Of a DNA stretch of 32,448 nucleotides, positions 21,674-23,826 are shown piece by piece. Below the pieces are notes generated by a model. It was not told where the DNA came from and ran no database searches. It was given only the letters and a program-made list of their open reading frames with translations. Position 1 is the stretch's first letter. Each line of letters starts with the position of its first letter. The DNA comes from Fibrobacteria bacterium AD312 (GTDB lineage: Bacteria > Fibrobacterota > Fibrobacteria > Fibrobacterales > Fibrobacteraceae). Where the stretch lies: positions 1 to 32,448 of the forward strand of contig LIUM01000016.1 of NCBI GenBank assembly GCA_001462345.1, read 5' to 3'. Both the position numbers and the translations under genes were made by a program.

Positions 21674-21746
21674 GCGGGAGTAGCTCAGTTGGTAGAGCGT
21701 CAGCTTCCCAAGCTGAATGTCGAGAGTTCGAACCTCTTTTCCCGCT
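21674..21746 (+). tRNA. tRNA-Gly(CCC)
   Basis: The cloverleaf folds completely. The acceptor GCGGGAG pairs with TTCCCGC. The D stem is GCTC/GAGC. The anticodon stem TCAGC/GCTGA has loop TTCCCAA (anticodon CCC). The T stem GAGAG/CTCTT has loop TTCGAAC, and the discriminator base is T. CCA is not encoded. A terminator follows 5 nt after the gene. The 3' 48 nt of this gene are repeated at 23710, which marks it as an integration site. Confidence 0.95.
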
Positions 21747-21815
21747 CTTTAGAAATCGCCCCAATTCGGGCGATTTTTTTTGTTTTCGGGGCAATTTCGC
21801 CAATTATCATGTCAA
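21699..21815 (+). repeat. Attachment-type direct repeat, left copy (tRNA-Gly 3' part + terminator)
   Basis: These 117 bp, starting at the 5' edge of the anticodon stem and running through the tRNA 3' end, terminator and 34 further bases, match 23710-23826 at 112 positions by hand count. The five differences all lie beyond the tRNA, three of them in or next to the terminator loop. The symmetric anticodon stem-loop is a classic crossover site of tyrosine recombinases, so this is the probable attL. Confidence 0.85.
21751..21781 (+). terminator. Rho-independent terminator of tRNA-Gly
   Basis: AAATCGCCC pairs with GGGCGATTT around a 6-nt loop and is followed by a run of eight T (counting the last stem bases). 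The copy at 23762-23792 keeps the stem while changing mostly loop bases. Confidence 0.9.
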
Positions 21816-21828
21816 CTACAACATTTTT

Positions 21829-21860
21829 TATGAAACCCAAAACCCCCTTTGGATTTCATA
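21829..21860. other. Hairpin downstream of the AbiE operon
   Basis: TATGAAACCCAA (21829-21840) pairs with TTGGATTTCATA (21849-21860) at 11 of 12 positions, 76 bp after the AbiEii stop. It may limit AbiE transcripts from running into the convergent tRNA. There is no T-tract on the minus strand, so termination is uncertain. Confidence 0.4.
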
Positions 21861-21935
21861 GAATTTCTGGAAATCCCTGCGCGAGCACGAGATTGAAATG
21901 TGAAGCGATTCACCAGAGAGAGTCGCAAGGAATAT

Positions 21936-22859
21936 TCACAAAGTCCATCCCTTCGATGGAATCCAGTGCGTAAATGGGAATGATTCCTGTTCTGATATTA
22001 AATTCAATACGGGTAGAATAAATTGTGCAATTTCACTAATGGCATCCTGTAAAGATCCCACTGTTTCCAAGGGCTTGGACTTTTTCACAAAACCATGCCA
22101 TTGACTTTGCTTCGATAAATCAGACCAAAACTCTTCGGTCAATGCAATTGGGGGTTTATTGGGAAAACTTGTTTTACGCCGCTCAAAAGTACTTTTGATT
22201 GCTTCAGAAAATTGTGTTTGTTCAAATTCAAACATTCGGGATAAAAGACAAAGATCATAAAAGTCCTTCATGCGACTATTCGCGATGCCGAGCTTGACCA
22301 TTGCTTCGATTTTTTCTGCGGCAAGTGTATAATGCGAATAACCCCTGATGTGAGCTTGTGGAAAATCTAGAATGGATGGAAAATCAATAAATTCAGCTTT
22401 AGGCACAACGGCATCACCAAAGCCAATATCAATTTGAATGGGGATGCGAGCCTTTCCAAGCATACCAACCATAGTGATCCGCACACCATTATATTCCTGC
22501 CATTCTTTTATTGGTTCTACTTTCAAAGAATTGATTTGAAACTGAACGCCGTCATCCTCATAAGGATCTGAAATCACTTCGGTAAAAACAGTATGGAGTC
22601 TTTCAATGCTGGGATCACCAAAGCCAAGAAGGTCCACGTCCTTTGTGACTCGGAAGTTTTGTCCTTTCCAAACCAGGAACATGCTTGCCCCTTTAAGAAT
22701 GAATTGATTCACATACTTGGATTGACTCAAGCGGTAAAGTAACCGTTCCTGTCCATATCTCGTCAGTAACAATTCAAAATCCGCTCCAAGTTCCTTTGAT
22801 TTACGCGTAAGCTGTACACGAACAAAATGAGCCGCATCGGGTTGGTTGGGTTTACTCAA
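21936..22859 (-). CDS. abiEii: AbiEii nucleotidyltransferase toxin
   Basis: The 307-residue toxin of a type IV toxin-antitoxin pair has the AbiEii core: a helical leader with DFELLLTRYGQERLLYRLSQ, then FILKGASMFLVW with the Gly-x-Ser motif (Ser59), and VTKDVDLLGFG with catalytic Asp74 and Asp76. IQIDIGFGD, YTLAAEKIEAMVKLG and MKDFYDLCLL follow in family order. I place the start at TTG 22859, which overlaps the AbiEi stop and sits 7 nt after a GGAGG site. The product then begins MSKPNQPDAA as in relatives, whereas the in-frame ATG at 22904 would extend it into AbiEi. AbiEii/MenT enzymes are thought to block tRNA function. All catalytic motifs are intact. Confidence 0.93.
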   Translation of the reverse strand: MSKPNQPDAAHFVRVQLTRKSKELGADFELLLTRYGQERLLYRLSQSKYVNQFILKGASMFLVWKGQNFRVTKDVDLLGFGDPSIERLHTVFTEVISDPYEDDGVQFQINSLKVEPIKEWQEYNGVRITMVGMLGKARIPIQIDIGFGDAVVPKAEFIDFPSILDFPQAHIRGYSHYTLAAEKIEAMVKLGIANSRMKDFYDLCLLSRMFEFEQTQFSEAIKSTFERRKTSFPNKPPIALTEEFWSDLSKQSQWHGFVKKSKPLETVGSLQDAISEIAQFILPVLNLISEQESFPFTHWIPSKGWTL

Positions 22860-23455
22860 ACGATAGCCTCCATGTATGGTTTCATGACTTTCAGTACTCT
22901 GCAAACTTTTGCCGCTTCGGTGATTTCGTCCATGGTGGCTTGTTTATTTTTCCATACTTCACGCAAGGCTTCAATTGCCACGTCAAGGCCGACCTTGCTT
23001 CGGAATTTAAAACAATCAGCAACCGTTCTTGCCGGAGAATAAATCTGAAAACGAAATTGTCCCACAAGATGATCTTGCCTTCCAAAGGAATACGTTTTAG
23101 GATCTACAATGGTGTAGTTGATGGGAGGATACTGTACTTTGGTTTTTCTCCTACCTCGGGGAAGGGTGATCCACACTTCGTGAGGAAGTTGCGTAGTTAT
23201 TCCATAAACGCTCAGAGCAGACAGCAGAGAAACAGTACATTCACCAACTTGGCGGACCGCCTCAATAATGGAACTGTGCTCTATGGCGTGAAACCCATCC
23301 TTATCAATAAACAATCCCTTCGCTGATTTTTCTAGAAAACCCTGAGCATAGAGCTTATAGAGGTACCTTCTAGAAACTCCCAGGCTTTCTGCATCCGCAG
23401 CTGAGATAAACCCATTTTGTTTAATTTGCTCTAGAAGAAGCTCTTTTTTATTCAT
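22856..23455 (-). CDS. abiEi: AbiEi antitoxin and autorepressor
   Basis: The 199-residue antitoxin has an N-terminal winged-helix segment (FISAADAESLGVSRRYLYKL, then GFLEKSAKGLFI; about residues 10-52). A C-terminal domain typical of AbiEi follows: LSALSVYGITTQLPHEVWIT, YSPARTVADCFKFRSKVGLD and AIEALREVW. In known systems the N domain binds the operon's own promoter and the C domain neutralises the toxin. ATG 23455 is preferred over an in-frame TTG at 23470. The gene precedes the toxin with a four-base overlap of stop and start, giving coupled synthesis. A promoter flanked by perfect inverted repeats lies immediately upstream, consistent with autorepression. Confidence 0.93.
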   Translation of the reverse strand: MNKKELLLEQIKQNGFISAADAESLGVSRRYLYKLYAQGFLEKSAKGLFIDKDGFHAIEHSSIIEAVRQVGECTVSLLSALSVYGITTQLPHEVWITLPRGRRKTKVQYPPINYTIVDPKTYSFGRQDHLVGQFRFQIYSPARTVADCFKFRSKVGLDVAIEALREVWKNKQATMDEITEAAKVCRVLKVMKPYMEAIV

Positions 23456-23460
23456 TTTAA

Positions 23461-23512
23461 TAGTTCTCAATTTGTATACAAATATAAATTAATGTAATCA
23501 ATATGAGAACTA
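23461..23512 (-). promoter_or_regulatory. AbiE promoter flanked by 9-bp inverted-repeat operator
   Basis: On the minus strand TTGATT and TATACA are separated by exactly 17 nt. The sequence TAGTTCTCA at 23461-23469 is repeated as its perfect complement TGAGAACTA at 23504-23512, 43 nt apart, so the two arms bracket the -35 and -10 elements. A TTTGTATACAAA palindrome overlies the -10. Published work on streptococcal AbiEi shows binding to inverted repeats around its promoter, which fits this layout. Confidence 0.7.
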
Positions 23513-23709
23513 GAAATTTTAAAATTTTTGAAATTCATTGCATCTATCTAGTGTAATGGATTAAGAAATACCTTCATGATTTGTATGATCTGTAAAAATC
23601 ATATAATTTATTGCATTCTGTTGAAGTGGTTAGATAATAAAAAAAGTATTGTAAAATCTAGGGTGAATTTCTTAAATACTTAGTAATTTAGCTAAATTAA
23701 GCATGTATT

Positions 23710-23826
23710 GTCAGCTTCCCAAGCTGAATGTCGAGAGTTCGAACCTCTTTTCCCGCTCTTTAGAAATCGCCTCAATGTGGGCGATTTTTTTTGTTTTCGG
23801 GGCAATTTCGCCAAATTTCATGTCAA
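23710..23826 (+). repeat. Attachment-type direct repeat, right copy (truncated tRNA-Gly + terminator)
   Basis: It starts at the anticodon stem of tRNA-Gly and lacks the acceptor 5' strand and D arm, so it cannot give a tRNA. The following terminator stem is kept (AAATCGCC/GGCGATTT with T8). It is the probable attR of the AbiE cassette. Identity to 21699-21815 ends sharply at both sides. Confidence 0.85.

Follow-up and report, generated by a model that had tools for sequence, protein, structure and literature searches.

Results

Layout of the locus

The window analyzed here is one whole contig (C16, 32,448 bases) of a 2.83-Mb genome that is 99.3% complete. Its sole tRNA gene found by ARAGORN is an intact tRNA-Gly(CCC), which is followed by an AbiE toxin-antitoxin operon and then by a truncated copy of the tRNA. 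G106 and G004 are genomes of two other genera of the family.

21674-21747, + strand: intact tRNA-Gly(CCC) (ARAGORN); the target gene, whose 3′ part would come from the element (attL)
21699-21815, + strand: left repeat copy, made up of tRNA positions 26-74, the terminator, and about 35 bp further
21830-21867, + strand: leader-like segment at the left inner end, with a weak to moderate resemblance to the integrase leader of G106
21936-22859, − strand: AbiEii nucleotidyltransferase toxin; starts with TTG, which overlaps the AbiEi stop as TTGA; the listed open reading frame runs to 22904
21938-23634, no strand: homology to the G106 AbiE module, 95.4% over 21938-23509 and diverged to about 23634
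22856-23455, − strand: AbiEi antitoxin/repressor; ATG start; the listed open reading frame begins at TTG 23470
23461-23512, − strand: inverted repeat with two 20-nt arms, 80% complementary, over the abiE promoter; likely AbiEi operator
23653-23668, + strand: putative arm-type integrase site, AAAATCTAGGGTGAAT, 41 bp before the right repeat copy
23710-23826, + strand: right repeat copy, a truncated tRNA-Gly 3′ part plus terminator
23827-23954, no strand: MITE-like 128-bp sequence with 17-bp terminal inverted repeats, 15/17 matching (GGGTACCTCTGAAAATG)
23973-24011, + strand: remnant resembling the G004 integrase-leader repeats, TTTGGGGAGAAAATGGGGTGATTTTTTTGGTGAAAATAT; likely the left end of a second, older element

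The two repeat copies match at 112 of 117 bp, which is far beyond chance. All five mismatches (21761, 21766, 21767, 21804, and 21806) lie downstream of the tRNA. The shared sequence begins at tRNA position 26, immediately before the anticodon stem, and the bases upstream of the two copies are unlike (GGTAGAGC versus GCATGTATT). Between the copies (21816-23709), AbiEii and AbiEi are the only genes, with neither an integrase nor a transfer gene. The original prediction had described this arrangement, with an identity beginning at the anticodon stem and no integrase within the 2-kb cassette, and ARAGORN, the repeat alignment, and the PF08843 and PADLOC matches agree with it. Segmental duplication was considered as a source of the repeat and rejected, since the repetition is confined to the tRNA 3′ part with its flank and the genome holds no further copy. 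A 33-base core of the tRNA, searched with up to 3 mismatches, is present twice only in the window's genome.

Other defense-type genes lie on the 5′ side of the tRNA (13863-21458):

13863-14579: AbiEii-like protein
14997-16343: AbiLi-like ATPase
16479-21458: type ISP/IIG restriction-methylation enzyme

Related repeats occupy both ends of the window (1-440 and 32060-32448) and recur at the end of a contig (C312) of G001, a genome of the same genus; these repeats probably broke the assemblies.

The AbiE operon

AbiEii matches PF08843 (E = 1e-45, score 156.9 against a cut-off of 22.5), its PADLOC model (3e-102), and, in the structural database, AbiGII (PDB 9hlo_B, E = 4e-32). AbiEi matches its PADLOC model (1e-63) and PDB 6y8q and 9hlo_A (about 1e-10); its score against Pfam AbiEi_4, 24.8 bits, is slightly below the cut-off of 25. 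The pair has the makeup of an AbiE type IV toxin-antitoxin system: a DUF1814/PF08843 toxin and an upstream AbiEi with an N-terminal winged-helix domain, the genes overlapping at 22856-22859. Promoter-like hexamers precede AbiEi at 23509-23481. Autoregulation by AbiEi at a promoter inverted repeat is expected from one study (PMC7319586). By analogy with that work, the inverted repeat at 23461-23512 is likely the operator through which AbiEi would repress the operon. AbiEi would also antagonize AbiEii, a DUF1814-type nucleotidyltransferase toxin. Toxins of this type are nucleotidyltransferases, and the related MenT toxins modify tRNA acceptor stems, according to a second study (PMC10435456). Between the window and the G106 copy, dN/dS is 0.09 for AbiEii and 0.22 for AbiEi; both genes have therefore been under purifying selection, a pattern that fits maintained function.

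Many AbiEii genes occur among the 111 family genomes examined, and a close one was found only in G106 (96% identical; the next is 48%). This genome is a metagenome-assembled genome, Fibrobacteres bacterium CG2_30_45_31. Its AbiE operon is 95.4% identical to that of the window, compared with about 68% for shared chromosomal DNA, and these identities indicate that the operon moved between genera recently. In G106, the operon lies elsewhere than at tRNA-Gly(CCC), at a contig end, where 200 bp separate it from the 3′ end of a preceding integrase gene. That integrase belongs to the subfamily described below and is 51% identical to the G004 integrase over the available piece. The homology ends abruptly at the AbiEii stop codon. 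Inspection by eye of the G106 contig (C31; L107 1-9850) suggested TIR-like and thymidylate kinase/synthase-like genes beside AbiE, possibly a defense island.

We also examined about 1.5 kb of flank at 18 further AbiE loci of the family, and none has a tRNA or a comparable flanking repeat; one locus (L094) has a single 69-bp repeat. IMG/VR holds no close AbiEii, and no listed phage record exceeds 35% identity, so a viral origin of the operon is disfavored. Plasmid records reach at most 48% identity to AbiEii among the matches listed.

A still-mobile, satellite-like 2-kb cassette, relying for excision and insertion on an integrase supplied in trans by a visiting island or phage, would agree with the recent movement of the operon between genera and with the retention of both att-like ends and an arm-like site. 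Against this, no second copy of the 2-kb unit was found in the 111 family genomes. The G106 operon is without flanking tRNA-Gly fragments in its contig and shares nothing with the window to the left of the toxin stop. The window's genome also lacks an integrase of the relevant subfamily, as described in the next section. We regard this explanation as improbable.

Integrases at tRNA-Gly(CCC) in relatives

In both G106 and G004, a tyrosine integrase gene (415 and 433 aa, respectively) starts about 200 bp downstream of an intact tRNA-Gly(CCC) and is directed away from it. The two proteins are 43% identical. Diverged members of this subfamily occur in genus g4, several of them adjoining other types of tRNA gene. 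The 2.83-Mb genome that contains the window yielded no member of the subfamily. The five PF00589 matches there fall in four loci: two hold full-length genes of Xer-like size, and the other two are fragments or split genes. The best E value of these proteins against the G106 integrase is 2e-7.

The original prediction had proposed searching this tRNA locus in related genomes for empty sites and for larger islands with an integrase. Apparently empty sites do exist: G105, G107, G108, and G110 carry the tRNA in the same synteny, and no truncated copy was found there. Integrase-bearing islands are present at the same tRNA in G004 and G106, with no transfer genes identified in them, but among the relatives examined no parent island holds the window's AbiE at tRNA-Gly(CCC). 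The empty-site reading rests on other genera, because the two genomes of the window's own genus (G001 and G002) are fragmentary, their contigs stop before the tRNA region, and in neither was a CCC tRNA found. G004 has a second integrase gene (L160 6798-7748, 316 aa) about 5.7 kb downstream of this tRNA, an arrangement that would fit stacked elements.

In most of 40 family loci, the tRNA adjoins the operon at 1645-5293 of the window and/or speA (26353-28248), in an orientation that varies by genus. Many g5 genomes have the tRNA in the opposite orientation with respect to the flanking operon and speA (L056-L058, L067, and L073 versus L059 and L065).

Candidate attachment and arm-like sites

The closest parallel to the right repeat copy comes from G004. 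A displaced fragment in this genome (C167:26463) reproduces its tRNA-Gly perfectly over 47 bp, running from about position 28 through the last base, and begins in the same anticodon stem as the right copy. Located 47 bp before this fragment is TGGGGAGAAATTGGGGAG, which resembles TGGGGAGAAAACGGGGAG of the G004 integrase leader. As judged from these sequences, such a layout would be expected for arm-type sites on both sides of a core. Two G004 contigs (C167 and C179; L155 and L157) carry displaced tRNA-Gly 3′ fragments, one perfect and one decayed, and hence point to repeated integrations at tRNA-Gly.

Candidate sites of the same kind are present in the window. The putative arm-type site AAAATCTAGGGTGAAT matches a direct repeat of the G106 integrase leader exactly over 16 bp, a result reached in 1 of 2000 shuffles. 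The left leader-like segment (21830-21867) lies 83 bp from the tRNA end, compared with 82 bp in G106. Several details count against an integrative origin from an island of this kind. The AAAATCTAGGGTGAAT match is just 16 bp long, and its score is equaled at one other, unrelated place in the window. At the left leader-like segment the match is weak: its local alignment score of 26 was reached by 14 of 2000 shuffles. The extent of the att sites is unusual, because the window copies have the terminator and flank in common, whereas the identity of the G004 pair ends with the tRNA. Finally, the orientation of AbiE relative to the leader differs from that in G106, since the toxin end faces the tRNA side in the window and the G106 operon lies behind an integrase gene.

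Copies of the tRNA tail also occur in relatives without AbiE. In several g5 genomes (L055, L060, L063, L064, L069, and L078), tail copies of 13-78 bp, starting from about position 58-66, lie 200-300 bp downstream of tRNA-Gly(CCC); these may be scars left by repeat elements or by integrases of another class. The original prediction had named two outcomes as arguing against site-specific integration, namely relatives with this truncated tRNA but no AbiE, and a duplication belonging to a larger repeated segment. Neither was seen for this fragment, the g5 tails being of different extent. Such tails nonetheless lend some substance to the idea that AbiE entered by homologous recombination or transposition between tRNA-tail copies left by earlier tandem integrations, and that the cassette never depended on an integrase. 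The halt of the G106 homology exactly at the toxin stop codon, which suggests that the operon can travel as a bare module, would suit this route as well. It sits poorly, however, with a G106 operon adjoining an integrase of the same subfamily and with leader-like and arm-like sequences inside the unit at the expected distances, and we give it little credence.

A MITE-like insertion and a possible second element

The MITE-like sequence is inserted exactly where the right repeat copy ends, and a relative of it (38 bp, 87%) is located elsewhere in the window's genome (G000:C5:59276). Because the repeat stops just where this sequence begins, the 117-bp extent may have been cut by the insertion, which the original prediction did not mention.

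The segment at 23973-24011 aligns to the G004 leader with a score of 42, which was reached in 0 of 2000 shuffles. With the MITE-like sequence removed, this remnant lies 87 bp from the tRNA end, compared with about 138 bp in G004. The following gene (24114-25982) is also found beside speA in G001, at 97% identity; it is therefore native to the genus, and the chromosome resumes before 24114. Because a relic resembling a different integrase leader sits past the right copy, the site probably took at least two tandem elements. On the strength of this likeness, the right copy is probably the left terminus of an earlier element, now decayed, and the AbiE element would have integrated ahead of it. This, too, had been missed at first.

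A simpler variant of the integration scenario, compatible with its first half, holds that there was a single integration. The right copy would then be the host's original tRNA end with its terminator, and the leader-like sequence beyond it would be chance or host DNA. This variant has a standard att layout in its favor, and the occupied G106 and its empty relative G107 have the tRNA and terminator alike. However, nothing else in the whole window matches the G004 leader nearly as well as the tail past the right copy; the next unrelated place scores 25. We consider a single integration possible but rather unlikely.

Discussion

At the level of sequence, there is good support for site-specific integration into the tRNA gene. 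That much of the original prediction of a minimal integrative element stands, given the integrases of relatives, the G004 fragment, the arm-like sites, the near-identical cargo, and the apparently empty sites. The other part, a satellite mobilized in trans, finds nothing in the unit beyond its att-like ends. Of the two fates originally offered, fixation after loss of the integrase is the better.

We think it likely that the unit is a decayed, integrase-less integrative element (CIME-like) at tRNA-Gly(CCC), an island reduced by deletion with AbiE retained, and probably in tandem with a second element. An island with a tyrosine integrase of the G106/G004 subfamily would have recombined at the anticodon stem-loop of the tRNA. 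The incoming element would have given the tRNA a new 3′ part, and the displaced old part would have become the right copy, which may earlier have been the left end of an older element, the AbiE element entering in front of it. Deletion would then have removed the integrase and all other genes, sparing both attachment ends and one AbiE operon. The operon may have been kept as a toxin-antitoxin/abortive-infection unit.

A more ambitious proposal would make this a live minimal element of two att ends and a lone AbiE, moved in trans among genera of Fibrobacteraceae by the integrases of visiting islands, with the toxin-antitoxin pair both addicting the host and defending it. We judge this proposal very improbable. 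If the ends were still active, the unit would be among the smallest toxin-antitoxin-only mobile units. The decayed island, our preferred explanation, shows how a defense or toxin-antitoxin operon can outlast all other genes of an island that targeted a tRNA. For an uncharacterized subfamily of Fibrobacterota tyrosine integrases, the locus also points to tRNA-Gly(CCC) as the target and to the anticodon stem-loop as the probable crossover region, and it supplies candidate arm sites.

How does the unit compare with known elements? Phage satellites carry packaging or helper-hijacking genes; the unit contains only the two abiE genes. Tycheposons and other hitchhiking elements are tRNA-targeted, have small cargo, and may depend on other elements. 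The window unit is likened to them in these features, and differs in having no recombinase, replication, or packaging gene left.

CIMEs are elements that retain attL and attR after losing their integration and transfer genes, and accretion in tandem at one target has been described (PMC5704250); examples are the Streptococcus ICESt1-related islands (Pavlovic 2004 and Bellanger 2011, cited in PMC5704250). The window unit is similar in lacking integration and transfer genes, in having two att-like ends around it (the repeat from tRNA position 26, and a G004 fragment with a similar start), and in lying in tandem with what is probably another decayed element at one target gene. It differs in being only 2 kb long with a single toxin-antitoxin operon. 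Its descent from an ICE or IME and its cis-mobilization are putative, and we therefore use the label CIME-like. The tRNA-gene islands mapped by Islander (PMC4383910) likewise have an intact tRNA at one end and a displaced 3′ fragment at the other; the window unit differs from them in its very small size and in having no integrase gene inside. The AbiE type IV toxin-antitoxin/abortive infection system (PMC3985639) shares with the window the bicistronic overlapping antitoxin-toxin genes, the PF08843 toxin, and the promoter inverted repeats. What differs is the setting, since here AbiE, with a putative anti-phage role, is the sole cargo of a tRNA-bounded relic. The element type is already known, and the window unit is notable for its 2-kb size and single toxin-antitoxin cargo.
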